20,415 nucleotides of DNA from a virus: IMG/VR virus record IMGVR_UViG_3300042924_000462, positions 1 to 20,415 of that record; one strand, given 5' to 3'. The translations under genes were made by a program, and so were the position numbers. The notes under the pieces were generated by a model, which saw nothing but the letters and a program-made list of their open reading frames with translations, was not told the DNA's origin and did not search any database. Shown here in pieces: positions 38-19,659 of this stretch (the first letter of the stretch is position 1; every line of letters begins with the position of its first letter).

Positions 38-1506
38 GTCTCGACACCCTCCCAGAAGCAGCCCTCAAAGAGCTGCTTCTGCTGACAGAAGCGAAACGGA
101 AGCTGGACCTGCGCGAGAAGGCGCAGGACAGCTTCATGGCGTTTGCCCACCACGTCTACGAGAACTTCATCGAGGGCCGACATCATCGGATCATCGCCGA
201 AAAGCTCGAGCGCGTCGCGCGTGGGGAGCTCAAGCGCCTGATCATCAACATGCCGCCTCGCCACTCGAAGTCGGAGTTCGCGTCATATCTGATGCCTGCG
301 TGGTTCCTTGGCCGGAACCCGAAGCTCAAGATCATTCAGGCCACGCACAACACAGAGCTTGCCGTCCGCTTCGGCCGCAAGGTCCGAGACCTGATCGACA
401 ACCCTCAGTATGCAGAGATTTTCCCGAAGACGAACCTCAAGGAAGACTCAAAGTCCGCGGGCCGATGGCAGACAGACCAGCTTGGCGAATACTTCGCTGC
501 GGGCGTGGGCGCGGCCGTGACGGGCCGCGGTGCCGATCTCTTCATCATCGACGACCCGCACTCTGAACAGGACGCCTTGTCCGAGACGGCGTTTGACCAC
601 GCCTACGAGTGGTACACCTCTGGCCCCCGCCAGCGTCTGCAGCCCGGCGGCGCGATCATCGTCGTTATGACCCGCTGGGGTAAGAAAGACCTGACGGGCC
701 GCCTGCTTCAGGCTCAGGGTTCGGACATCATGTCGGACCAGTGGGAGGTCGTGGAGTTCCCGGCAATCATGCCGTCGGGCGATCCGCTCTGGCCGGAGTT
801 CTGGGAAAAGAACGCGCTCCTGTCGATCAAGGCCTCGCTTCCGGCGGCCAAGTGGTCGGCTCAGTGGCAGCAACAGCCGACGACTTCCGACGCGGGCATC
901 ATCCGCAAGGACTGGTGGCGCATGTGGGAGAAGGAAGACATCCCTCGTCTGGACTACGTCCTTCAGGCCTACGATACGGCCTTCTCCAAGAAGGAGAGCG
1001 CCGACTACTCGGCGATCACGACGTGGGGAATCTTCAAACCGGAGATAGACGGCCCTGACCACATCATCCTGCTCGACGCGCAGCGGGGCCGATGGAGCTT
1101 TCCGGAGCTCAAACAGGTCGCCTTCGACGAGCATGAATACTGGCAGCCTGACATGGTTCTCGTCGAAGCGAAGGCCACGGGTCAGCCGCTTATTGACGAG
1201 TTGCGCCTGAAGAACATCCCTGCCCTTGGTTTTTCGCCGGGAGGTCGGGGCGGCGGGCGTGACAAGGTGAGCCGGATGCACATGGTTGCTCCGCTCTTCG
1301 AAGCGGGTATGGTATGGGCTCCAGAAGCCAAGAGTTTTGCGGACGACGTGATCGAAGAAGTGACTTCTTTTCCCAATGGCGATCATGACGACTTTTGTGA
1401 TAGCATGACGCTGGCTCTAATGCGTTTCCGTCAGGGCGGATTTGTGGCACTTGAAGGCGAAGACGTAGGGGATGATCCTATCCCACGCAAACGGGAGTAC
1501 TACTGA
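34..1506 (+). CDS. terL: Terminase large subunit (ATPase-nuclease)
   Basis: This is the DNA-packaging motor: it cuts concatemeric phage DNA and pumps it through the portal into the prohead using ATP. At 490 residues it is a normal length. The N-terminal ATPase domain shows a Walker A-like PPRHSKS at residues 74-80, a Walker B LFIIDDP at 169-175 and a coupling motif MTRWG at 212-216. The C-terminal RNase H-like nuclease shows its acidic residues in AYDTAFSKK (D313), LVEAKATG (E378) and HDDFCDS (D452/D453). All key motifs are intact. The ATG overlaps the stop of the preceding frame and its last base pairs with the portal start (ATGA), so it is probably translationally coupled on both sides. Family assignment is secure; the packaging strategy (headful or cohesive end) cannot be read from this sequence. 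Confidence 0.96.
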   Translation: MSLDTLPEAALKELLLLTEAKRKLDLREKAQDSFMAFAHHVYENFIEGRHHRIIAEKLERVARGELKRLIINMPPRHSKSEFASYLMPAWFLGRNPKLKIIQATHNTELAVRFGRKVRDLIDNPQYAEIFPKTNLKEDSKSAGRWQTDQLGEYFAAGVGAAVTGRGADLFIIDDPHSEQDALSETAFDHAYEWYTSGPRQRLQPGGAIIVVMTRWGKKDLTGRLLQAQGSDIMSDQWEVVEFPAIMPSGDPLWPEFWEKNALLSIKASLPAAKWSAQWQQQPTTSDAGIIRKDWWRMWEKEDIPRLDYVLQAYDTAFSKKESADYSAITTWGIFKPEIDGPDHIILLDAQRGRWSFPELKQVAFDEHEYWQPDMVLVEAKATGQPLIDELRLKNIPALGFSPGGRGGGRDKVSRMHMVAPLFEAGMVWAPEAKSFADDVIEEVTSFPNGDHDDFCDSMTLALMRFRQGGFVALEGEDVGDDPIPRKREYY

Positions 1507-4001
1507 TGGCTGTCGCACCTCGTATGGCAGGTTCATTGACCGATAGCGGCTTCATGCAGGGCGGCATGGACGAGGACGTCCCGCAGGTCGAGTTCTCGAT
1601 GCCCGGTGCCGAGGACTTCTCGGGTGGGGCGATTGTCACGGAGACCGAGGACGGCGGCGCGATGGTGCAGGCTGTTGCGGATGCGCTCATGGCTATGGAG
1701 GCCGAGGTCCAAATCCCGCACGACGCCAACCTCGCCGAATACCTCGAGGATTCCTACCTTGGCGAGATCGCCTCTGACCTGACGGCCGCCTACGAAGACG
1801 ATCTCCTGTCCCGCGAAGAATGGGAAGAGGCCTACACCAAGGGCCTCGACCTTCTCGGCGTCAAGACCATCGAGCGCACCGAGCCCTTCCAAGGCGCGTC
1901 GGGCGTGACCCACCCGCTCATCTCCGAGTCCGTCACCCAGTTTCAGGCGCAGGCCTACAAGGAGCTCCTTCCCGCAGGCGGCCCGGTCAAGACTGGCGTC
2001 ATGGGCCTGCAGGACCCAGAGCGCGAGGCTCAGGCGGCCCGGGTCCGGGACTTCATGAACTACGAGATCACCGAGGTCATGGAAGAATATGACCCGGACA
2101 TGGACCAGCTTCTGTTCTATCTGCCCCTCTCAGGTTCCTGCTTCAAGAAGGTTTACTGGGACGTGGGTCTGCAGCGCGCGGTGGCCAAGTTCATCCCGGC
2201 GCAGGACGTCGTTGTTCCGTACATGGCCACGGACCTCTACACGACGCCGCGCGTCACGCACCGCCTGCGGATGGATAAGAACGAAATCCGCAAGATGCAG
2301 GTCGCCGGGATGTACCGGGACATTGACCTGATTGCCAGCGACGAGCCCGTCGATCAGGTGCGCGAGAAGGTTGACGAGCTGCAGGGCACGTCCAAGACAT
2401 ACATGGACAAGACCTACACGCTGCTTGAGATGCACGTAAACCTCGACATCGAGGGCTTCGAGGACCTTGACCCAGAGGGCGAGCCCACAGGCATCGAGCT
2501 CCCGTACATCGTAACCATCGACAGGTCGTCTTCCAAAGTATTGTCGATCCGCCGCAACTTCGAAGAGGGGACGGAGCTTGCCAAGAAGCGCCAGTATTTC
2601 GTCCACTACAAGTTCATGCCGGGTCTGGGCTTCTACGGCTTCGGTCTGATCCACATGATCGGCGGCCTCGGCCGTGCTGCTACGTCGATCCTGCGTCAGT
2701 TGATTGACGCGGGCACCTTGGCGAACCTTCCGGGCGGCTTTAAGGCCAAGGGTATTAGGGTCCGCAACAGCGACGAGCCGATCCGCCCGGGCGAGTTCCG
2801 CGACATCGACGCCCCCGGTGGGGACCTCCGCAACTCGATCATGCCGCTGCCGTACAAGGAGCCGAGCGCAACGCTGGCCCAATTGCTTGGCAGCCTGATC
2901 GACGCTGGCCGTCGCTTCATCTCGCTGGCAGACGAAAAGACCGGAAACATGAACCAAGAGGCCCCGGTCGGGACCACCGTTGCTCTTCTCGAGCGCGGCA
3001 TGAAGGTCATGTCGGCGATCCACAAGCGCCTCCATTACGCACAGAAGACCGAGTTCCGTATCCTTGCGCGCATTTTTGCAGACAACCTTCCGCAGGAGTA
3101 CCCCTACGAGATTGCCGGGGCGGAGCGGACGGTGTTCGCGGCAGACTTCGACGACCGGGTCGATGTGATTCCGGTCAGCGATCCGAACATCTTCTCGATG
3201 GCGCAGCGCGTCACGTTGGCCCAGACCCAGCTTCAACTTGCTCAGTCGGCACCGCAGATGCACAATCTGCATGCCGCTTTCCGTCGCATGTATCAGGCCC
3301 TTGAGGTCCAGAACATTGAGGAAATCCTGCCTCCTCCTCCGGAGCCGCAGCCCACTGATCCAGTGACCGAGAACGCCCGTATCCTGATGGGCGAACTGGC
3401 GCAGGCTTTCCCCGATCAGCTGCACGACGTCCACATCCAGCTCCACGTGGCCTTTATGAAGACCCCGCTGGTTTCCACGTCTCCGACGGCTATGGGCGTC
3501 TTCTACGCCCACGTGCTTGAACACATTGCCCTCAAGGCTCGGAACGACGTCCAGAACCAGATCATGCAGCTGATGCAGTCGGCAGAGGCTCAGGCCATGG
3601 CCGGGAAAGCTAACCCGCAAATGGTCCAGCGCATGGTGATGCAGGCGCAGCAGCAGATGCAGGACCCCGCTCAAGTCGAGCAGCTTGTGGCCATTCGTCA
3701 GAAAGAGCTGATGGACGAGCTGATGCCGATGATCTCTCCGCAGGGCCCCGATCCGATGGCCGACCCGCTGGTAATGATCCGCATGCGGGAACTCGAGCTG
3801 AAGAACAAGGCCGAAGACCGCAAGACCGAGATGGAAAAGGCCCAGCTTTTGCTGGACGCCGCCAACCAGAAGCAGCGCGCAACCACCGACGCTGCCCGTT
3901 TGGAGCTGCAAGAGCAGATCGCCGACGAGCGCAACGAGGTAAACCGCGAGCGCATCGAGGTCCAACGCCAGTCGTCCATGGCAAAACAGAGGGCTTTCTG
4001 A
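1506..4001 (+). CDS. Portal protein, P22-like, with long helical C-terminus
   Basis: This protein forms the ring at the capsid vertex through which DNA enters and to which the neck attaches; the terminase docks on it. At 831 residues it is long for a portal and resembles the P22-type family. Around residues 375-415 it has the characteristic [19 protein letters not shown] stretch and an Ala/Leu/Gly-rich helix region, followed near 485-500 by [15 protein letters not shown], which I recognise from podovirus portals. A proline run ([15 protein letters not shown]) near 608-622 divides the core from a Gln/Met/Glu-rich, strongly helical tail (about 683-831), which may form a barrel like that of the P22 portal. 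It overlaps terL and the next gene by one base each. The only uncertainty is the sub-family. Confidence 0.92.
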
Positions 4002-4254: not shown

Positions 4255-4467
4255 ATGGATGTTGTTAGCTTGTCGAAAGCGCTGTATAAGGTTTTAAGGG
4301 AGCGCGAGCAGGACATCGCCGAGATGGTTGCTACGGGTTCTCCCGCGAACTGGGAGCAGTACCAGAGTATGGTTGGCGAGATACGGGGCCTCGCCTTTGC
4401 CAGAGAAGAACTTCGAGCCCTGCTGGAGAGAACAACAGAAGATGCCCTCGAAGCTTTATCTTCCTGA
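4255..4467 (+). CDS. Conserved hypothetical helical protein between portal and co-chaperonin
   Basis: A 70-residue protein preceded by a good ribosome site (GGAGG at 4243-4247). It appears wholly helical: a start resembling DVVSLSKALYKVLRERE, a short WEQYQSMVGEI element, then a Glu/Leu/Arg-rich amphipathic helix. Small proteins with this pattern are common beside phage portal genes, but I know of no assigned function. Its last 26 bases overlap the start of the downstream co-chaperonin gene in another frame, suggesting coupled translation. Confidence 0.75.
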   Translation: MDVVSLSKALYKVLREREQDIAEMVATGSPANWEQYQSMVGEIRGLAFAREELRALLERTTEDALEALSS

Positions 4468-4924
4468 CCACCTTGTGGAACGCATCAACAAGACCAAGGC
4501 GGCCAGCGAGCCCGTGTCTGCTCAGGCCGCCTACGTCAAAGCAGAGGACCGCGTCCTCGACCCCGAACTCCTCGACAAGCCCTTGGTAGACCGCCTGCCC
4601 CAACCGACAGGCTGGCGGATTCTTGTCATGCCCTATCAGGGTAAGGCAAAGACCGACGGCGGCTTGATCATCCCTGATCAGGTCCGTGACCGTGAAGCGC
4701 TGGCCACTGTCGTGGCCTACGTCATGCGCCTTGGGCCGCTGGCCTACAAGGACCCGAACAAGTTCGGGGACAACGCAGAGCCGTGGTGCCAAGAAGGACA
4801 GTGGGTCTGCATCGGCCGCTATGCTGGCTCGAGATTCAAGATTGACGGAGGCGAGGTCCGCATCATCAATGACGATGAGGTCATCGCTACGATCCTTGAA
4901 CCCGACGACGTACAACACGTGTGA
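4442..4924 (+). CDS. GroES-like co-chaperonin (Cpn10 fold)
   Basis: A 160-residue protein whose residues about 55-152 read as a Cpn10 domain: PTGWRILVMPY (first strands), then KAKTDGGLIIPDQ, which aligns with the GroES mobile loop and its hydrophobic tripeptide for GroEL binding, then ALATVVAYVMRLG, then EGQWVCIGRYAGSRFKIDG and EVRIINDDEVIATI, the usual GroES end. Residues 1-54 are an extra N-terminal extension, and an insert at 100-118 replaces the roof region. Known phage co-chaperonins such as T4 gp31 act with host GroEL to fold the major capsid protein. The place here, before scaffold and coat, fits that. ATG 4442 was chosen because upstream codons overlap the previous gene and share nothing with the fold. 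Domain match is by eye; partner and substrate are inferred. Confidence 0.82.
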   Translation: MPSKLYLPDHLVERINKTKAASEPVSAQAAYVKAEDRVLDPELLDKPLVDRLPQPTGWRILVMPYQGKAKTDGGLIIPDQVRDREALATVVAYVMRLGPLAYKDPNKFGDNAEPWCQEGQWVCIGRYAGSRFKIDGGEVRIINDDEVIATILEPDDVQHV

Positions 4925-4932
4925 GGAACAAC

Positions 4933-5805
4933 ATGAGCGTAGAGAAAAACGACGACGATGACGTCGGCAACGAGATCATCATTGAGACCGAAGAGTCCGG
5001 AGAAAGCCAGACCAGCCCGCAACAGGCTTCTGGTGACGATGACGACGAACTTTCGTCGTACAGCACCAAGGTCCAAGCTCGGATCGGCCGGATCACCGAG
5101 AAGTACCGCAAGGAGCAGAGGGACCGCGAGGAAGCGACCCGGATTGCCCAGAAGCTTCTGGAAGAGAACAACCAGCTCAAGAGCCGCGTTCAGGCCCTCG
5201 ACACGGGGTATCTGACGGAGTACGGCGCACGGCTCGAGCACCAAGAATACCTTGTGAAAGGTGCATACCGGGTTGCCTACGAGTCTGGGGATGCCGACGC
5301 AATGATGTCGGCCCAAGAGGACCTTGCCAAGATCGTCTTGGAAAAGCAGCGCTATGCCACAGCGAAGCAGCGTTCCGAGGCAGCTCCTGCCCGCGCGCAG
5401 CAGGCCGAGCGTGAAGCCCCGGCTCCGCAGCAACAGGCAGCCCCTCAGGTCAAGCCCGACCCCAAGGCTCAGGGCTGGGCCGAAAAGAACAAGTGGTTTG
5501 GCGAAGACCGCATCATGACAACTGCGGCAATCGCCATTCACCAGACGCTCGTTGAGGACGAAGGCTTTGACCCGAGTTCAAATGAGTACTATACTGAGAT
5601 CGACCGCAGACTTCGGACGGAATTTCCGCACAAGTTCGCGGCTCGCAAACCGGGTGGAGGAAGTCAGGTCGCCCCTGCTGGCAACTCCGCATCCCGCAGC
5701 ACGACACAGGAGCGCCGAACAGTGCGGTTGTCCCCGTCTCAGGTCGCCATCGCTAAGCGGCTGAATGTTCCGTTGGAAGAATACGCCAAATATGTGAAGG
5801 ACTGA
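4933..5805 (+). CDS. Probable capsid scaffolding protein
   Basis: A 290-residue protein in the usual scaffold position, between portal and coat genes. The N-terminus is extremely acidic (EKNDDDDVGNE). Residues about 45-95 are a charged helical or coiled-coil segment (RITEKYRKEQRDREEATRIA onward), and the middle is Ala/Gln/Pro-rich linker. Then come a compact block (WAEKNKWFGEDRIM, EIDRRLRTEFPHKF) and a C-terminal helix (LSPSQVAIAKRLNVPLEEYA) which may bind the coat. This acidic-coil-linker-helix layout is typical of scaffolds, which direct prohead assembly and then leave. I chose ATG 4933 over GTG 4921 because GAGGAA at 4923-4928 is well placed for it. No protease or protease site was identified. 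It could instead be an internal head protein. Confidence 0.72.
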   Translation: MSVEKNDDDDVGNEIIIETEESGESQTSPQQASGDDDDELSSYSTKVQARIGRITEKYRKEQRDREEATRIAQKLLEENNQLKSRVQALDTGYLTEYGARLEHQEYLVKGAYRVAYESGDADAMMSAQEDLAKIVLEKQRYATAKQRSEAAPARAQQAEREAPAPQQQAAPQVKPDPKAQGWAEKNKWFGEDRIMTTAAIAIHQTLVEDEGFDPSSNEYYTEIDRRLRTEFPHKFAARKPGGGSQVAPAGNSASRSTTQERRTVRLSPSQVAIAKRLNVPLEEYAKYVKD

Positions 5806-6907: not shown

Positions 6908-7819
6908 ATGGCAATTTCGCGCGCACAACTTGCGAAAGAGCTTGAGCCCGGTCTCAATGCTCTCTTCGGCATGGAGTATGCTCGGTATGAAAACCAGCAT
7001 GCTGAAATCTTCACCACCGAGTCCTCGGATCGTGCATTCGAGGAAGAGGTCATGCTGTCCGGGTTCGGATCAGCACCGACCAAATCGGAAGGCTCGGGCA
7101 TCTCGTATGACGATGCACAGGAAGCCTACACCGCTCGGTACAACCATGAGACCATCGCGCTGGCCTTCTCGATCACCGAGGAAGCCATCGAGGACAACCT
7201 GTACGACCGCCTCGGCAGCCGTTACACCCGTGCCCTTGCCCGCTCGATGGCTCACACCAAGCAGGTGAAAGCTGCTGCCATTCTGAACAACGCCTTCACG
7301 GCGGGTGCTTCGGCTGGTGGCGACGGCGTGGCTCTCTGCGCCACCAACCACCCGCTGGTGAATGGCTCGACCTTCGCCAACAAGCCCACCACCGATGCCG
7401 ACCTGAACGAAACCTCGCTCGAGGACGCTCTGATCAACATCGCTGGGTTCGTGGACGAACGCGGTCTGAAAGTGGCTCTTCGCGGCCTGAAGCTGATGAT
7501 TCCTCGTCAGTTGCAGTTCGTCGCTGAGCGTCTGATGGTTTCGAACCTCCGCGTCGGCACCGCCGACAACGACGTGAACGCCATCCGTTCGATGGGCCTG
7601 CTGCCGGAAGGCTACGCCGTCAACGACTTCCTGACCGACCCGGATGCGTACTTCATCAAGACGGACGCACCGCGCGGCTTCATCCACTTCGAGCGCACTG
7701 CGCTCTCGACTGGCATGGAAGCTGACTTCGACACGGGCAACATGCGCTACAAGGCGCGTGAGCGTTACTCGTTCGGCTTCTCGGACCCGCGCTGCGTGTT
7801 CGGCACCACCGGGGCCTAA
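6908..7819 (+). CDS. Major capsid protein, Mu gpT-like (HK97 fold expected)
   Basis: A 303-residue coat protein, close to the length of Mu gpT. Recognisable parts are the N-terminal helix (ISRAQLAKELEPGLNALFG), an extended arm region about 66-98 (ISYDDAQEAYTARYNHETIA then FSITEEAIEDN), the core helix with RYTRALARSM, and CATNHPLVNG at 144-153, which corresponds to the N-H-P-L signature I associate with gpT-type coats. The C-terminus has RYKARERYSFGFSDPR, a beta strand typical of the end of the axial domain. It is preceded by GGAGA and followed at once by a strong terminator, as expected for the most abundant transcript of a head operon. Scaffold and co-chaperonin sit just upstream. No separate long N-terminal prodomain is visible. 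Confidence 0.9.
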   Translation: MAISRAQLAKELEPGLNALFGMEYARYENQHAEIFTTESSDRAFEEEVMLSGFGSAPTKSEGSGISYDDAQEAYTARYNHETIALAFSITEEAIEDNLYDRLGSRYTRALARSMAHTKQVKAAAILNNAFTAGASAGGDGVALCATNHPLVNGSTFANKPTTDADLNETSLEDALINIAGFVDERGLKVALRGLKLMIPRQLQFVAERLMVSNLRVGTADNDVNAIRSMGLLPEGYAVNDFLTDPDAYFIKTDAPRGFIHFERTALSTGMEADFDTGNMRYKARERYSFGFSDPRCVFGTTGA

Positions 7820-9305: not shown

Positions 9306-9971
9306 ATGGCAACCTCAGGGACCCGGACGTTCAATCTGGACGTCGGCGAGCTTATCGAAGAGGCGTATGAGCGGTGCGGGCTTGAAGTCCGCACAGGCTA
9401 CGACGCGCGCACGGCACGGCGGTCCCTGAACCTGATGTTCGCTGAGTGGGCCAACCGCGGCCTGAACCTGTGGACCGTGAACCAAGCCACGATCACCGTC
9501 ACTGTTGGTGTCGCGACCTACACGGTCAACGCCGACCACGCGGACATCCTTGAGATGGTTCTTCGTCGGGACGGCACGGACTACGAAGTCGAGCGCATCA
9601 GCCGCGGGGACTTCTTCCTTCTGCCCAACAAGACCACGCAGGGGCGGCCGTCGCAGTTCTACTACGACCGCCAGATCGCCCCGAAGATCAGCCTTTGGCA
9701 GGTTCCTGAGAACTCGACCGACCAGTTGATCTACTACTACGTCCGCCGCATCGAGGACGCAGGAACCCTGCAGAACACCACCGACATGCCGTGGCGGTTC
9801 TATCCTTGCATGGTCGCGGGCTTGGCTTATTACCTCGCCATGAAGCGGGCCCCGGATCGCATGGGAATGCTCAAGGCGATCTACGACGAAGAGTTCACGC
9901 GCGCGGCCGAGGAAGACGAAGATCGGGTGCCGTTGAAGCTACAGCCTGATGTGGCCTACCTGAGGTTCTGA
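9306..9971 (+). CDS. Head-to-tail adaptor protein (gp4/gp11-like)
   Basis: A 221-residue protein. Its N-terminal helices (LDVGELIEEAYERCGLE, then TARRSLNLMFAEWANRGLNLW) lead into a beta segment (ATITVTVGVATYTVN, ILEMVLRR), then SQFYYDRQIAPKISLW, and a C-terminal helical bundle (PCMVAGLAYYLAMKRAPDRM). This helix-strand-helix layout is that of the adaptor ring that sits below the portal in short-tailed phages (P22 gp4, T7 gp11). It starts four bases after the previous stop without an obvious ribosome site, so coupling is likely. Together with the similar-sized protein at 10273 it gives two adaptor-like genes. Assignment by fold pattern and position rather than by exact motif. Confidence 0.75.
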   Translation: MATSGTRTFNLDVGELIEEAYERCGLEVRTGYDARTARRSLNLMFAEWANRGLNLWTVNQATITVTVGVATYTVNADHADILEMVLRRDGTDYEVERISRGDFFLLPNKTTQGRPSQFYYDRQIAPKISLWQVPENSTDQLIYYYVRRIEDAGTLQNTTDMPWRFYPCMVAGLAYYLAMKRAPDRMGMLKAIYDEEFTRAAEEDEDRVPLKLQPDVAYLRF

Positions 9972-10276
9972 TGCCATACGCCAGTGGAAAAAATGCTTGG
10001 GGTATTTCTGACCGCTCCGGCGTCCGCTTCCGGCTGCGCGACATGCGTAAGGAGTGGACGGGGCTTCTCGTCGGCCCCGACGAGTACGACCCAAAGCATC
10101 CGCAGCTGTTCCCGCCAAAGGCGTACCCTGACCCGCAGGCGCTTCGCAATCCTCGCCCAGACCCGGAGGCAGGGCATGTCTATGTCAATGCCGGAGACTG
10201 GGTCTTTCCTCCGCTTCCACACCTCGCAGGACCGATCACGGGATCGGTTGGAAGGGTTACGGTAACCACATCATGA
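9971..10276 (+). CDS. Conserved hypothetical protein between the two adaptors
   Basis: A 101-residue protein beginning in the TGATG overlap with the first adaptor and ending in an ATGA overlap with the second. The start, PYASGKNAWGISDRSGVRFR, then RDMRKEWTGLLVGPDEY and HPQLFPPKAYPDPQALRNPR, is a pattern I recall from other phages next to adaptor genes. It is Pro/Arg-rich with few helices. The C-terminal PITGSVGRVTVTTS may be a beta strand. Tight coupling on both sides suggests it belongs to the neck or to its assembly; no biochemical role is visible. Confidence 0.78.
   Translation: MPYASGKNAWGISDRSGVRFRLRDMRKEWTGLLVGPDEYDPKHPQLFPPKAYPDPQALRNPRPDPEAGHVYVNAGDWVFPPLPHLAGPITGSVGRVTVTTS
10231..10267 (+). 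promoter_or_regulatory. Two tandem inverted repeats ahead of the second adaptor
   Basis: ACCGATC 10231-10237 pairs exactly with GATCGGT 10242-10248 across a 4-base loop. Seven bases on, GGTTAC 10255-10260 and GTAACC 10262-10267 form a 13-base near-palindrome around one G. They lie in the last codons of the upstream gene, 5-42 bases before ATG 10273, and GGAAGGG (10250-10256) lies between them. They could tune translation or form a protein site; chance is not excluded. Confidence 0.3.
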
Positions 10277-10923
10277 GCTTCACTTACGGCCAACTGAAGC
10301 AGGCTCTGCAGGACTATCTCGAGACCTCGGAGACTACCTTCGTCAATAACCTCCCGCTCTTCATCCGCCTGTCGGAGGAGCGCATCCTCAAGAACGTCCA
10401 GCTGAACCTGTTCCGCAGGAACGTCACGGCCAACGCAACGTCTGGGAACCAGTTCCTCGCTTGCCCGTCGGATTTCCTTGCGCCGTTCTCGTTGTCCTAC
10501 ACGGACGGCGGAAACGATAAAATCTTCGCGGAGTTCAAGGACGTCAGCTTCGTGCAGGAGTACGCTCCGGACGTGGCTGTGACCGGAGCGCCCCGGTACT
10601 ACGCCCAGTTTGACAACGAGAACTTCATCTTGGGCCCAGCCCCGAACTCGGCGTATTCGATGGAGCTTCACTACTTCTACCGCCCTACCAGCTTGACGGC
10701 CGGATCGGACAGTGGGACCACGTGGCTCAGCGTCAACGCCGAACTGACCCTGTTCTACGGCGCAATGATCGAGGCATACCTGTTCCTGAAAGGCGAGCCC
10801 GACTTGCTGGCCAGCTACGACAAGCGGTTTCAAGAATCTCTGCTTGGTCTCAAGATGCTGGGCGAAGCCAAGCAAGTCACCGATGAATACCGCAAAGGCA
10901 TGGTTGTGAGGGCGAAAGAATAA
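10273..10923 (+). CDS. Head-to-tail adaptor, phage SU10 type
   Basis: A 216-residue protein I place in the SU10-type adaptor family: N-terminal TYGQLKQALQDYLE helix, then NNLPLFIRLSEERILKNVQL, then a beta stretch with LACPSDFLAPFSLSY, then FNLGP-like strand ENFILGPAPNSAYSMELHYF, and C-terminal helices (LFYGAMIEAYLFLKGEPDLL and a Lys-rich end). In phage SU10 this protein joins the portal to the tail nozzle. Its start overlaps the previous stop by four bases, and its stop overlaps the next start. The family call is from memory of characteristic motifs; a neck role is well supported by context. Confidence 0.8.
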   Translation: MSFTYGQLKQALQDYLETSETTFVNNLPLFIRLSEERILKNVQLNLFRRNVTANATSGNQFLACPSDFLAPFSLSYTDGGNDKIFAEFKDVSFVQEYAPDVAVTGAPRYYAQFDNENFILGPAPNSAYSMELHYFYRPTSLTAGSDSGTTWLSVNAELTLFYGAMIEAYLFLKGEPDLLASYDKRFQESLLGLKMLGEAKQVTDEYRKGMVVRAKE

Positions 10924-13714: not shown

Positions 13715-15244
13715 ATGTTAGGTTTTTATCCGCTGTCATCCGCTCCGCTTAGTTCGAGCGACATTTTTACAGCTAGTGTAGTCATAACGGTCCCCGTCAC
13801 GGGCGTTTCTGCCACGGGAGCTGTTGGGACTGTTTCAGTCACGGGGACTGCCGTTGTTCCCGTCACGGGCATTTTTGCCACTGGGGCTGTTGGGACTGTT
13901 TCGGTCACGGGGACTGCCGTTGTTCCCGTCACGGGCGTTTTTGCCACGGCGGCTGTCGGCACAGTCACTGTTGCGGCATCCACCGACGTTCCCGTCACGG
14001 GCGTTTCTGCCACTGGGGCTGTTGGGACTGTTTCGGTCACGGGGACTGCCGTTGTTCCCGTCACGGGCGTATCTGCCACAGGTACTGCCGGAACGGCTGT
14101 GGTTTCAACCTTCGCTGACGTTCCGGTCACAGGCCTCTCCGCCACGGGCGAGATTGGAACTGTTGCTGTTGCGGCATCCACCGACGTTCCCGTCACGGGC
14201 GTTTCTGCCACAGGTGCTGTTGGCACTGTCGTAGTCTCAATCCCGGTTGACGTCCCTGTCACTGGCGTAGCTGCCACGGGGGCTGTTGGAACTGTTGCTG
14301 TCACGGGCACCGCCCTTGTCCCTGTCACGGGCGTATCTTCCACGGGGGCTGTTGGCACTGTCGTAGCCTCAATCCTCATTGACGTCCCTGTCACGGGCGT
14401 ATCTGCCACGGGCGCTGTCGGTAGTGTCTTGGTAGCCGTTCCCGGAGTTACCCCTGTCGAGGGCGTATCTGCCACGGGCGCTGTTGGCAGTGTCTTGGTC
14501 TTCGCGGGTTCTGTCATTGTCCCTGTCACTGGCGTAGCTTCCACGGGAGATGTTGGAACTGCTGCGGCCACGGGCACCGCCCTTGTCCCTGTCACGGGAG
14601 TTTCCGCAACCGGGTCTGTTGGAACTGTCGTAGTCTCAACTCTTGTCGACGTCTTGCTGACAGGCGTATCTGCCACTGGCGCTGTCGGTGACGTTGAGGC
14701 GGGGGATATTGTCAACGCCCCAGTGACAGGCGTTTCCGCAACCGGGTCCGTTGGCTCAGTTGCCGTTGAGGGCTCTGCTCTGGTGGCGCTTAGCGGGGTC
14801 TCCGCAACAGGCGTTGTTGGCGCGATCCCCTTCAACACGTCGGTGCTTGTGACTGGCGTCTCGGCCTCAGGCTTTGTCGGCACCGTCTTTATCTGGACCC
14901 AGATTGTCCCTGCACCAGCGACCAATTGGGACCCCATTAGCCCGGCGGTGACCACGACGTGGGGTACTCTTTTTCCTGCCCCCGGCTCCGTCTGGGCGCA
15001 AGTTTCCCCTGCCCCGCCCACCGCGTGGAGCGCTTTTTCCCCTGCCCCCGGAACAACGTGGGCGCAGGTTACTCCGGTCGCGGCTGACTCGTGGACAGCC
15101 GTCTCGCCCTCTGCCCCCACCTCATGGAACGGTATTACCCCTGCTCCCGGTTCGACGTGGACGCAGGTCAATACAGATGCTATAAATTCATGGACCGAGG
15201 TGCAACCAGCACCGTCCACCACTTGGACAAACATCGCGGCGTAA
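13715..15244 (+). CDS. Two-part repeat protein: 17 x 22-residue and 10 x 11-residue units
   Basis: A 509-residue protein with GGAGGTG at 13704-13710. After 25 residues, residues 26-397 are 17 tandem units of 22 (20-23) residues with consensus VPVTGVSATGAVGTVxVxGT, an all-beta Val/Thr/Gly repeat. Residues 399-508 are 10 exact-length units of 11 residues, PAPxTxWxxVx, each with Trp at the seventh place. No membrane segment, signal peptide or catalytic motif appears. The first unit can be split into two 11-residue halves, so both parts share a period of 11. The regular strands suggest a fibrous beta structure and the Trp units a hydrophobic or carbohydrate-facing ladder. I think it is a fibre or virion surface protein, from position among fibre genes; no family is firmly recognised. 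Confidence 0.82.
   Translation: MLGFYPLSSAPLSSSDIFTASVVITVPVTGVSATGAVGTVSVTGTAVVPVTGIFATGAVGTVSVTGTAVVPVTGVFATAAVGTVTVAASTDVPVTGVSATGAVGTVSVTGTAVVPVTGVSATGTAGTAVVSTFADVPVTGLSATGEIGTVAVAASTDVPVTGVSATGAVGTVVVSIPVDVPVTGVAATGAVGTVAVTGTALVPVTGVSSTGAVGTVVASILIDVPVTGVSATGAVGSVLVAVPGVTPVEGVSATGAVGSVLVFAGSVIVPVTGVASTGDVGTAAATGTALVPVTGVSATGSVGTVVVSTLVDVLLTGVSATGAVGDVEAGDIVNAPVTGVSATGSVGSVAVEGSALVALSGVSATGVVGAIPFNTSVLVTGVSASGFVGTVFIWTQIVPAPATNWDPISPAVTTTWGTLFPAPGSVWAQVSPAPPTAWSAFSPAPGTTWAQVTPVAADSWTAVSPSAPTSWNGITPAPGSTWTQVNTDAINSWTEVQPAPSTTWTNIAA
13790..14905 (+). repeat. 66-bp tandem repeats encoding 22-residue units (17 copies)
   Basis: Seventeen in-frame units, most 66 bases long, run without interruption. 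Units 1, 2 and 4 are nearly identical in DNA as well as protein. Later units diverge mainly in the last eight residues, while the VTGVSATGxVGxV core is kept. Such DNA similarity favours copy-number change by recombination or slippage. Confidence 0.9.
14909..15238 (+). repeat. 33-bp tandem repeats encoding Trp-containing 11-residue units (10 copies)
   Basis: Ten consecutive units of exactly 33 bases encode PAPATNWDPIS, PAVTTTWGTLF, PAPGSVWAQVS and so on. Trp is invariant, and Pro leads eight or nine units. The fixed length with diverged DNA suggests selection on the protein shape rather than recent duplication. Confidence 0.9.
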
Positions 15245-15253
15245 GGAGGCGAT

Positions 15254-17617
15254 ATGGCCAGCACGTATACAGCGAACAGCGGCATTGAGCTCATTGCAAG
15301 CGGCGAACAGTCCGGCACTTGGGGCACAACGACCAACACCAACCTGTCGATTGTTGACCGACTGGCGAACGGGGTTGGGGTGATTTCTCTCGCAGGTACA
15401 ACCCACACGCTGACCACCTCTGACGGGGTTCTCTCGGACGGGCAGTACGCGGTTCTGGTTTTTGTCGGGGCCCCTTCCGGCACGAACACGGTGACAATTT
15501 CGCCAAACGACGGGCAGCACGTCTACATCGTCAAGAACTCCTCTGGCGAAAGCGTGATCCTGACCCAAGGTTCTGGAGGCAACGTCACTGTAGCCAACGG
15601 CGACACCAAGGTTGTGTACTCCGACGGAACCGGAGCAGGGGCCGCGGTCGTAGACATCACCGCTGACTTCGCTATGTCGAGCGTCAAAATCACCGGGGGT
15701 TCGATCACCGGGATCACCGACCTTGCTATCGTGGACGGGGGCACTGGAGCGTCGGATGCGTCCACTGCCCGGACCAACCTCGGCCTCGCCATCGGCACGA
15801 ACGTGCAAGCCTACGACGCGGAGCTCACCGCCATTGCCGCTCTCGCAGTAGCCGATGGAAACATCATTGTCGGCAACGGCACGACTTGGGTCGCCGAAAG
15901 CGGCGCGACTGCCAGAACCTCTCTTGGTCTTTCCATCGGCACAGACGTACAGGCCTACGACGCCGGACTTCAGTCGATTTCCGGGCTGACGACGTCTGCC
16001 GATCAGATGATCTATACGACGGCTCTGGACACCTACGCCACCACGGGGCTCACCGCGGCTGGGCGAGCAATCCTTGACGACGCCGACGCCTCTGCTCAGC
16101 GCACGACCCTTGGCGTTGCCATCGGCACTGACGTGCAGGCGTATGATGCGGCGCTTCAGTCCATCTCTGGGCTGACGACGTCTGCAAACCAGATGATCTA
16201 CACGACGGCCCTCGACACCTACGCCACCACGGGCTTGACCGCTGCTGGCCGCGCCATTCTTGATGACGCCGACGCCTCTGCCCAACGCACGACCCTCGGC
16301 CTCGCCATTGGAACAAACGTGCAGGCCTACGATGCGGAGCTGACAGCCATCGCAGGACTCGCGGTCACCAATGGAAACTTCATTGTCGGCAACGGCACGA
16401 CGTGGGTTGCCGAAAGCGGCGCGACGGCGCGGACCTCTCTTGGCCTCGGCACGATGGCGACTCAGGCTGCGTCGTCTGTGACGATCACTGGCGGCTCTAT
16501 CACGGGCATTACCGATCTGGCTGTCGCTGATGGTGGAACCGGGGCGTCTGACGCGGGCACAGCTCGGACCAACCTCGGCCTTGCTATCGGCACGAACGTG
16601 CAGGCCTACGATGCGGGGCTGCAGTCGATCTCCGCCCTGACGACGTCTGCCGACCAGATGATCTACACGACGGCGCTCGATACCTACGCCACCACGGGGC
16701 TTACCGCGGCTGGTCGCGCTATCCTCGACGACGCGGATGCGTCTGCTCAACGCACGACTCTTGGCCTTGCCATCGGCACGAACGTGCAGGCCTACGACGC
16801 TGAGCTGACCGCCATCGCGGGTCTTGCGGTTACCGACGGAAACATCATTGTCGGCAACGGTACGACTTGGGTTGCCGAGAGCGGAGCGACGGCGCGAACC
16901 TCCCTTGGTCTCGCCATCGGCACAGACGTGCAGGCCTACGACGCTGAGCTGACCGCCATCGCAGCTCTTGCGGTTACCGACAGCAACTTCATTGTTGGTA
17001 ATGGTACGACTTGGGTTGCCGAGAGCGGCGCGACGGCGCGAACCTCCCTTGGTCTTGGAACCATCGCCACGCAGGATGCTTCTTCTGTGACGATCACGGG
17101 AGGCACCATCAACGGCACCGCCATTGGCGGGTCCACCGCCGCCGCGGGGGCATTTACCACGGTGTCTGCGTCAGGCGACGTGACGATTGCCGACAAGATT
17201 GTACACGATGGAGATACGAACACCTCCATTCGCTTCCCTGCCGTTGATACGGTGACTGTGGAGACTGCGGGGGTGGAGCGTCTAAGGGTTGCCCCTTCCG
17301 GCGACGTGACTTTCTCTAACGGAATTATTCAGACAGTCTTTGCTTTGTCCGGCACCACTCCTGCGTTGGACCCGACCAACGGCACGATCCAAACATGGAC
17401 GCTCACGGCCAGCTCGACCCCTACCGACAGCTTGGTTGCGGGCGAAAGCCTGACGTTGATGATCGATGATGGCACGGCCTACACAATCACGTGGCCGTCT
17501 GTGACGTGGAAGACTGACGGCGGAACCGCGCCGACGTTGAACACGACGGGGTTCACCGCTATCATCCTGTGGAAGGTTGGGTCCGTGCTGTACGGCGCTC
17601 GGGTGGGTAACGCATAA
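15254..17617 (+). CDS. Large repetitive tail fibre protein
   Basis: A 787-residue protein with AAGGAGG at 15243-15249. The N-terminus (ASTYTANSGIELIASGEQSG, then TWGTTTNTNLSIVDR and HVYIVKNSSGESVILTQGSG) is a domain I recall at the start of many marine phage fibres and probably anchors it to the tail. Residues about 185-607 are repeats marked by QAYDA. The C-terminal region has INGTAIGGSTAAAGAFTTVS (a common fibre motif) and ends TAIILWKVGSVLYGARVGNA, a conserved fibre terminus. It probably forms a trimeric fibre that contacts the host. It overlaps the next gene by one base (TAATG). No peptidase, endosialidase or lyase motif is seen. Confidence 0.88.
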   Translation: MASTYTANSGIELIASGEQSGTWGTTTNTNLSIVDRLANGVGVISLAGTTHTLTTSDGVLSDGQYAVLVFVGAPSGTNTVTISPNDGQHVYIVKNSSGESVILTQGSGGNVTVANGDTKVVYSDGTGAGAAVVDITADFAMSSVKITGGSITGITDLAIVDGGTGASDASTARTNLGLAIGTNVQAYDAELTAIAALAVADGNIIVGNGTTWVAESGATARTSLGLSIGTDVQAYDAGLQSISGLTTSADQMIYTTALDTYATTGLTAAGRAILDDADASAQRTTLGVAIGTDVQAYDAALQSISGLTTSANQMIYTTALDTYATTGLTAAGRAILDDADASAQRTTLGLAIGTNVQAYDAELTAIAGLAVTNGNFIVGNGTTWVAESGATARTSLGLGTMATQAASSVTITGGSITGITDLAVADGGTGASDAGTARTNLGLAIGTNVQAYDAGLQSISALTTSADQMIYTTALDTYATTGLTAAGRAILDDADASAQRTTLGLAIGTNVQAYDAELTAIAGLAVTDGNIIVGNGTTWVAESGATARTSLGLAIGTDVQAYDAELTAIAALAVTDSNFIVGNGTTWVAESGATARTSLGLGTIATQDASSVTITGGTINGTAIGGSTAAAGAFTTVSASGDVTIADKIVHDGDTNTSIRFPAVDTVTVETAGVERLRVAPSGDVTFSNGIIQTVFALSGTTPALDPTNGTIQTWTLTASSTPTDSLVAGESLTLMIDDGTAYTITWPSVTWKTDGGTAPTLNTTGFTAIILWKVGSVLYGARVGNA
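15806..17074 (+). repeat. Interspersed A/B repeats in the tail fibre gene
   Basis: QAYDA begins at 15806, 15950, 16136, 16322, 16601, 16787 and 16931. Two unit types are present: A, 144 bases (ELTAIAxLAV ... WVAESGATARTSLGL), and B, 186 bases (LQSISxLTTSAxQMIYTTAL ... DDADASAQRTTLG). The order is A-B-B-A-B-A-A, and the fourth unit carries an extra 135 bases that repeat an earlier SSVxITGGSITGITDLA block. Copies are near-identical in DNA. Confidence 0.88.
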
Positions 17618-19659
17618 TGATCGGAGCAAATCTTCTCAGCGCGACGTCGTCGTCTCAGGGTTCGAGGGCCATCGCCGTAGGCGTCACCTCTTGGCCTAAT
17701 TTGATGGTGTACTCGTGGAACAATGGGTTTGGGGGTTTGTTTAGCAGTCCATCCACACCTGTTCCCGGAACTGTTCGAGGTGTGGCTTTTAGTCCCGACG
17801 ACTCGGCCATCGCCGTAGCGCATCTTACCACCCCGTTTATCACGGCCTACCCTTGGACGGCCTCTGGGTTCGGGACTAAATACACCAACCCGGGAACGCT
17901 TCCTGCAAGTACGGGCAACGGCATAGCCTTTAGCGGCGACGGCTCCGCTGTCGCCGTGGCCCATGCCGTAACCCCCTTCGTCACGGCCTATCCTTGGTCT
18001 GGCTCTGGGTTTGGAAGCAAGTATGCCAACCCCGCCACGCTGCCTGCAGGCACTGGAGAGGATATTGCCTTCACCGCAGGCGGCTCGGCCGTAGCTGTGG
18101 TTCACCAAACCACCCCTTTCGTCACGGTCTATCCTTGGTCCGGCTCTGGGTTTGGGACTAAATACACCGACCCGGGAACGCTTCCTACAGGCACGGGCAA
18201 TGACGTGGCCTTTAGCCCTGATGGCTCCGCCGTGGCCGTGGCACACACCACCAGCCCGTTCATTTCGGTCTACCCTTGGTCCGGCTCCGGGTTTGGAAGC
18301 AAGTTCTCAGACCCCGCCGCCCTCCCCGGGAACATCGGGTTTGGCGTAACTTTTTCTCCAGACGGGTCCTACGTTGCCGTAGCGCACAGCGTCAGCCCGT
18401 TCATTTCGGTCTACCCTTGGTCCGGCTCCGGGTTCGGCACAAGATATGCAGACCCTGCCACGCTGCCTACTGGGAACAGCAGCGGTGTTGCATTCAGCAG
18501 TGACGGGTCGAGCATTGCTGTAACGCACATCAACGCCCCCTACGTTACGGCCTACCCTTGGTCTGGCGCTGGGTATGGGACTAAGTACGCCGACCCGACC
18601 GTTCTGCCAACCAGCGCTGCCAACAGCGTGGCCTTCTCCAATGTTGGCAACGCCCAGCCCGCGTATACCGAATACATCGCCGTGGTCACCGACGCGTCTC
18701 CTCGTGTTTTAGCCTATCCTTGGTCGGGGTCTGGTTTCGGAACAAAGTACGCCAACCCGGCCACACTTCCTCCATCTACATCCTTTGGCGTGGCTTTCAG
18801 TCCCGACGGTTCAGCGCTTGCGGTAGCCCACGACTCGGGATTTGGCGTAACCGTCTACCCATGGTCCGGCTCTGGTTTTGGTACCAAGTATGCCGACCCG
18901 GCCGTTTCACCCGGAAGTGGCAGAGGCATAACTTTCAGCCCTGATGGCTCGACTATCGCTCTGGCAGTAAGCGGCAGCCCTAACATCGCGGCCTACGCTT
19001 GGTCCGGTTCTGGGTTTGGGTCTAAGTACGCCAACCCGGCCACGCTTCCAACGGGCTCTGGAACCGGGATAGCTTTCAGCCCCGACGGCTCGGCTATCGC
19101 TGTATCTCACCAAACCACCCCCTTCATTACGGCCTACCCTTGGTCTGGTTCTGGGTTTGGAACCAAGTACGCCAACCCGGGAACGCTTCCACCGGGCGAC
19201 ACAGATGGTATAGCCTTCAGCGGCTCGGCTATTGCCGTTGTTCATAGCCTTACTCCTTTCGTCTCGGCCTACCCGTGGTCCGGCTCTGGGTTTGGCTCTA
19301 AGTATTCCAACCCCAGTACTCTCCCAGCCGGACAGGGGGGCGGAGTGGCCTTCAGCCCCGACGGCTCGGCTATCGCCGTAGCACACATAACAACCCCTTT
19401 CTTCTCCGCCTACCCTTGGTCTGGCTCTGGGTTTGGGACTAAATACACCAACCCGGGCGTACTTCCGGCGGGCACTGGGACTGCAGTGGCTTTTAGGTCT
19501 AACACAGGCTCCGACTTGGCTATGGCTTCCAGTTTTAGCAGCTATCTTTATGTTTACCCTAGACTTTCCGGAGGAGGCCCCGGTACTAAGTACGCAGACC
19601 CGTCCACGCTTCCAACGGGTATCACCCGTGACGTAACCTTTGGGCGAGTCATACTATAG
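17617..19659 (+). CDS. WD40-like beta-propeller protein, candidate receptor-binding protein
   Basis: A 680-residue protein made almost wholly of 14 tandem units of about 47 residues. The consensus is IAVAHxTTPFITAYPWSGSG, then FGTKYANPATLPTGTGxG, then VAFSPDGS. The FSPDGSxIAVAH part is typical of WD40-like blades, and YPWSGSGFGTKY is a strong extra signature. Thirteen units are clear; the first is degenerate (MVYSWNNGFGG) and the last is altered (VYPRLSGGGPG). Fourteen blades equals two seven-bladed rings. No signal peptide, membrane segment or enzyme motif appears. Coupled to the tail fibre upstream and followed by assembly-chaperone-type genes, it is most likely a virion adhesin. A cytoplasmic scaffold role is the alternative. 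Confidence 0.82.
   Translation: MIGANLLSATSSSQGSRAIAVGVTSWPNLMVYSWNNGFGGLFSSPSTPVPGTVRGVAFSPDDSAIAVAHLTTPFITAYPWTASGFGTKYTNPGTLPASTGNGIAFSGDGSAVAVAHAVTPFVTAYPWSGSGFGSKYANPATLPAGTGEDIAFTAGGSAVAVVHQTTPFVTVYPWSGSGFGTKYTDPGTLPTGTGNDVAFSPDGSAVAVAHTTSPFISVYPWSGSGFGSKFSDPAALPGNIGFGVTFSPDGSYVAVAHSVSPFISVYPWSGSGFGTRYADPATLPTGNSSGVAFSSDGSSIAVTHINAPYVTAYPWSGAGYGTKYADPTVLPTSAANSVAFSNVGNAQPAYTEYIAVVTDASPRVLAYPWSGSGFGTKYANPATLPPSTSFGVAFSPDGSALAVAHDSGFGVTVYPWSGSGFGTKYADPAVSPGSGRGITFSPDGSTIALAVSGSPNIAAYAWSGSGFGSKYANPATLPTGSGTGIAFSPDGSAIAVSHQTTPFITAYPWSGSGFGTKYANPGTLPPGDTDGIAFSGSAIAVVHSLTPFVSAYPWSGSGFGSKYSNPSTLPAGQGGGVAFSPDGSAIAVAHITTPFFSAYPWSGSGFGTKYTNPGVLPAGTGTAVAFRSNTGSDLAMASSFSSYLYVYPRLSGGGPGTKYADPSTLPTGITRDVTFGRVIL
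17668..19656 (+). repeat. 141-bp tandem repeats encoding 14 propeller-type units
   Basis: The Pro-Trp codons of successive units fall at 17851, 17992 and 18133, a spacing of exactly 141 bases, and the pattern continues to the end of the gene. Unit 7 is about eight residues longer (NAQPAYTEY insert), marking the mid-point between two sets of seven. Confidence 0.88.

Follow-up and report, generated by a model that had tools for sequence, protein, structure and literature searches.

To our knowledge, detailed studies exist for only a handful of phage co-chaperonins, the best known being gp31 of phage T4. In cultured pelagiphages, roseophages, Caulobacter phages and cyanobacterial phages, members of the family considered here already bear the GroES annotation, and a survey of virioplankton chaperonins in the ISME J in 2017 may well describe viral GroES in plankton. 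Homologs are carried by hundreds of IMG/VR loci, and the family is a large one of marine and freshwater phages. In T4, gp31 takes the place of host GroES as the lid for folding of the capsid protein, and it sets the precedent for a phage co-chaperonin with a capsid client (PMC6318259). GroES is also a core gene of the HTVC023P-type phages (PMC9599517), so that the novelty implied when the present gene was first noted is not supported; the family had already been annotated and published. The gene is mostly ordinary; what stands out is its conserved N-terminal tail.

The co-chaperonin gene and its predicted fold

The window analyzed here, the whole 20,415-nucleotide stretch of IMG/VR virus record IMGVR_UViG_3300042924_000462, holds on its plus strand an intact reading frame (4442..4924) that encodes a co-chaperonin (Cpn10/GroES) of 160 amino acids, ends in TGA, and overlaps the genes on both sides. 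Against the Pfam family PF00166 (Cpn10), residues 54-151 score 38.6 bits (E=1.1e-9), above the curated cut-off of 21.1 bits; PHROG 3188 (co-chaperonin GroES) matches the product with E=7e-15, and a search of solved-structure sequences returned Cpn20 and bacterial Cpn10. NCBIfam GroES models also match, at scores below their subfamily cut-offs, and a Cpn10 match was present in all 57 of a set of diverse homologs. The ATG is called correctly: many relatives have the frame closed by a stop that lies one codon before the aligned start.

A structure model built from the 57-sequence alignment has a mean pLDDT of 77, with block means of ~79-93 over residues 51-160 and of 50-62 over residues 1-50 (a model built from the close-clade alignment alone, with a mean pLDDT of 39, was left out of the comparisons). 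By Foldseek and VIA-align, residues ~52-152 superpose on Cpn10 structures, the best match being 8wuc_a (Z 11.0, rmsd 2.8, 93 aligned), and E. coli GroES, 1aon_O, is matched with Z 8.8. The matches to T4 gp31 (2cgt_O, Z 8.0; 1g31_A, Z 7.2) lie near a background in which unrelated oxidoreductase barrels reach Z 7 and below, and alone would prove little; it is the Cpn10 chains, matched with Z values of up to 11.0 and above the unrelated structures, that decide in favor of a predicted GroES-type beta-barrel, placed at residues 54-151 (4601..4894, plus strand). The nearest viral structure models carry the name co-chaperonin GroES. The complete Cpn10-like domain recognized in a first-pass annotation of this DNA is thus borne out by Pfam, PHROG and the predicted fold, and modeling followed by comparison with GroES and T4 gp31, as that annotation had envisaged, yielded a Cpn10 barrel.

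Within the domain, the mobile loop KAKTDGGLIIPDQ (residues 68-80; 4643..4681, plus strand), a putative GroEL-docking loop, carries a KTxGG[ILV]x[LIV] motif that is conserved in 398 homologs, confirming that the loop had been rightly recognized. Its KTDGGLII aligns with KSAGGIVL of GroES and VTESGLII of gp31, and has the Gly-Gly and hydrophobic residues of a Cpn10/GroES mobile loop. Residue T71 is found in 396/398 homologs and G74 in 397/398, and position 75 is I, V or L in every one of the 398; at position 77, 349/398 have I, L or V, and 49/398 have K or R at the last hydrophobic position. The mobile-loop span is 23 residues, as against 21 in GroES and 25 in gp31.

The roof-region segment (residues 97-118; 4730..4795, plus strand) is slightly longer than that of GroES in span comparison and alignment. 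Counted from residue 97 to 119, the stretch has 23 residues, compared with 20 for E. coli GroES and 13 for T4 gp31, and the roof-loop loss, or open dome, of the gp31 type was therefore not found, a 23-residue roof stretch being retained. The whole domain takes up 98 residues for 91 positions of the Pfam profile. A 19-residue insert had been proposed for the roof; it is absent, being ruled out by the Pfam span, the alignment and the roof-stretch comparison, and the real excess over GroES is ~3-7 residues.

Gene order and co-inheritance with a capsid lineage

In the window, TerL and portal (1506-4001; PHROG 1216) are followed by two small genes and then by GroES; next come a scaffold-like gene, a pair of genes with no known function, and the gene for the major capsid protein. 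The nearer of the small genes (70 amino acids; 4255..4467, plus strand; PHROG 32603, function unassigned) overlaps the start of the GroES gene and lies just upstream of it in 74/84 loci of the window's clade, and is unrecognized in most other loci. Overlapping the GroES gene end is the scaffold-like gene of 294 amino acids (4921..5805, plus strand), and here the first-pass placement between portal and scaffold was right as to position, but the scaffold label was a guess, PHROG 28737 being a family with no assigned function. The major capsid protein, of 303 amino acids (6908..7819, plus strand), matches Phage_capsid_4 (E=1.8e-11) and PHROG 371. In a synteny survey of 398 loci falling into seven groups, with capsid counts taken from loci with enough sequence, the capsid gene followed GroES at a distance of ~2.0-2.2 kb in all or nearly all cases: 64/64 in the window's clade, and 48/48, 31/31, 63/64 and 50/50 in other groups. 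The scaffold-like gene comes immediately after GroES in almost every locus of six groups out of seven; in the RW group it was not recognized by sequence.

Further on, past the capsid gene, are two genes with SU10-adaptor domains (9306-9971 and 10273-10923), both matching family PF24175 and separated by a 101-residue reading frame; they are possibly paralogous head-tail adaptors. Reading frame 13715-15244 encodes 509 residues of short tandem repeats, VPVTGVSATGAVGTV, with no Pfam or PHROGs match. It is followed by a 787-residue tail-fiber protein (15254-17617) with several near-identical internal repeats, TSLGLAIGTDVQAYDAELTAIA, and, late in the structural module, by a 680-residue frame (17617-19659) built of repeated 'AYPWSGSGFGTKYADPATLP...FSPDGSAVAVAH' units of the WD40-like beta-propeller type (PD40, E=2.9e-11).

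Inheritance of the GroES gene follows a single capsid lineage. Used as a query independent of GroES, the capsid protein retrieved 22 records of annotated phages, and Cpn10 was found in all 20 that were tested, MW202604 (of the same length as MW202601) and MT836833 (10.8 kb) being left out of the test. All 15 records that had been matched by GroES protein similarity are also among the 22 capsid records, and the 5 further capsid records each carry Cpn10 by annotation and profile. Three of these, QDWS535, MW202675 and MW202545, have the gene in the same head-module slot; in vir526 and MW202601, with capsid identities of 26-28%, it lies outside the usual slot, in MW202601 near the gene for a single-stranded DNA-binding protein. 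To count these two phages as lacking Cpn10 would be wrong, since the gene sits elsewhere in their genomes. Phage vir526 (BK063670), which has an assigned methanogen host (Methanomicrobiales), carries its Cpn10 gene beside, just upstream of, TerL, together with a distant relative of the capsid protein. Cpn10 was found in 0/12 phages that have a related terminase and fall outside the capsid search results, the T4 positive control being found; the control genomes are few, and the related genomes are not independent of one another. Cpn60 was not found in 6 complete relatives or in 14 further IMG/VR records, leaving host GroEL as the only plausible partner.

A conserved N-terminal extension

Residues 1-53 (4442..4600, plus strand) form an N-terminal extension of the domain, modeled with block pLDDT means of 50-62, that on its own has no match in Pfam, PHROGs or PDB sequences. 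An extension of 54 residues had been reported from the sequence; its existence is confirmed, as is its conservation within the window's clade, but 53 residues precede the domain. Two motifs stand out. The distal KLYLPDH (residues 4-10; 4451..4471, plus strand) is confined to the window's own clade and was not found in the other clades compared; among 83 clade members L5 is conserved in 99%, P8 in 100% and H10 in 96%. The proximal motif AYVxxxxRVLDPxLLxKxLxxRLP (residues 30-53; 4529..4600, plus strand) is common to several neighboring clades, and its Y31, V38 L39 D40 P41, L43 and R51 L52 P53 are nearly invariant in the 83 clade sequences. In a set of 22 sequences, the invariant residues of the extension are L5, P8, H10, Y31, V38-P41 and R51. 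Mean pN/pS falls from 0.44 over residues 2-29 to 0.18 over residues 30-53 and 0.09 over the core; judged by these ratios, the extension is under purifying selection.

Measured to the P55 column, the extension has a median length of 56 in the window's clade, the longest usual value. The figure is 41 for HTVC023P and 40 for the Pag-Yong1 group, the CRP-901 and RW groups have 25-27, and Alcaligenes phage QDWS535 and MW202785 have 4 and 8. Among relatives with 42-72% identity in the capsid protein, extensions range from 4 to 53 residues and differ in sequence. On this comparison the extension does not go invariably with this type of capsid, and it may therefore tune contact with the client, bind another head protein, or stabilize the ring. 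Put tentatively, the extension is probably an arm, for the most part flexible and specific to its clade, by which contact with the client, with another head-assembly protein, or with a neighboring subunit is tuned.

Proposed role and alternative explanations

Cpn10 homology, the predicted fold, the conserved loop, linkage to and co-inheritance with the capsid gene, and the failure to find a phage GroEL in the genomes searched support what the first-pass annotation had read as a GroES-like co-chaperonin inside the head module. The gene very probably encodes a GroES-type co-chaperonin that acts as a heptameric lid on host GroEL in the folding of head proteins, the major capsid protein being the likeliest client. 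We infer that the phage Cpn10 would assemble as a heptamer and would dock on host GroEL through its mobile loop, displacing host GroES from its role, and that GroEL with the phage lid would help to fold phage head proteins. The likeliest client would be the major capsid protein, whose gene lies 2 kb further on, although it could instead be another head protein; for this family, the evidence that points to capsid folding is co-inheritance and gene order.

It is hardly credible that the gene is spurious or decaying, or that its Cpn10-like barrel has a different function: structural-alignment identity to cellular Cpn10 is only ~17-30%, but the core pN/pS given above indicates strong purifying selection, the gene is intact in hundreds of loci, and the loop has been kept. 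A possible, if not a favored, explanation is that the protein is a general supplement to GroES, an extra or better-suited version serving many phage or host proteins with no special capsid client. The core loop and roof are ordinary and close to those of GroES, and GroES-like genes are found in many other kinds of phage, as such a supplement would have it; the fixed place beside the capsid gene, the strict co-inheritance with one capsid lineage, and the absence from terminase relatives argue instead for the dedicated head-protein co-chaperonin. A gp31-like bigger cage, in which the extension and longer roof would alter the volume to fit an oversized coat protein, seems very unlikely, even with T4 gp31 as a precedent (PMC6318259) and a loop span that exceeds that of GroES by two residues. 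The capsid protein, at only 303 residues or about 33 kDa by length, is well below the ~56 kDa of T4 gp23 (PMC6318259), the roof is kept here but lost in gp31, which lacks the roof loop (PMC6318259), the protein exceeds GroES by no more than 3-7 residues in this region, and relatives with a 4-8-residue extension adjoin genes for homologous capsid proteins. A change in cage size, as the first-pass annotation had suggested, is thus weakly motivated, an enlarged cage being unnecessary for a client of this size.

The first-pass annotation had also suggested that the extension might recognize the coat protein. Selection on this segment, most marked in its proximal half, and its invariant residues would suit a role as a dedicated adaptor, with the capsid or scaffold-like protein bound by the extension and handed on to GroEL. 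This appears doubtful: both the length and the sequence of the extension vary between clades with similar capsid proteins, the extension has no confident structure, and its proximal part may just pack on the barrel or on a neighboring subunit. A bolder version, which we consider rather improbable, would have short linear motifs of the arm recruit the capsid or scaffold-like protein under the lid of a dedicated capsid-folding co-chaperonin, with the arm diverging by clade and the capsid lineage obligately dependent on its own Cpn10. The reading preferred here remains that of a co-chaperonin for head proteins bearing what is probably a mostly flexible arm.

A limited literature search returned no relevant paper on a phage GroES with an N-terminal extension, and neither the strict tie between Cpn10 and a capsid lineage nor the clade-specific conserved arm was found stated in it. 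The family is common among the viruses of the ocean and travels with a single capsid lineage, so that nature offers many lid and client pairs, some of them in culture, and these pairs form a test bed for how a co-chaperonin becomes specific to one substrate.

Comparison with described co-chaperonins

Among solved structures, the best sequence-profile matches in the PDB are chloroplast Cpn20 and Cpn23 (7ekq), with E 7e-18 for Cpn20; those proteins have tandem double Cpn10 domains, whereas the phage protein has one domain and an unrelated extension. Bacterial GroES (E. coli, 1aon) has the same barrel, the same loop with its Gly-Gly and hydrophobic residues, and the same roof segment; identity in structural alignment is 17-30%, and the window's protein differs in having a 53-residue extension and a roof stretch of 23 rather than 20 residues. 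T4 gp31 is likewise a phage co-chaperonin tied to head formation, with GLII in its loop and structural matches of Z 7.2-8.0, but it has no long extension and gene 31 lies in a different gene neighborhood; the profile of the window's Cpn10 family does not find gp31, whereas that of Pfam Cpn10 does. The closest described relatives are the GroES proteins of the pelagiphages HTVC023P and HTVC027P and of DSL-LC04, CRP-901, Caulobacter phage RW and Pag-Yong1, whose Cpn10 cores are 33-50% identical to that of the window. Kinship with the HTVC023P-type co-chaperonins is seen in the PHROG 3188 match, in tblastn identities of up to 50%, and in synteny, the gene occupying the same slot of the head module, with a scaffold-like gene next after it and the capsid gene ~2 kb away. 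Relative to these phages, in which the extension has 4-53 residues, the window's clade adds the distal LYLPDH motif.
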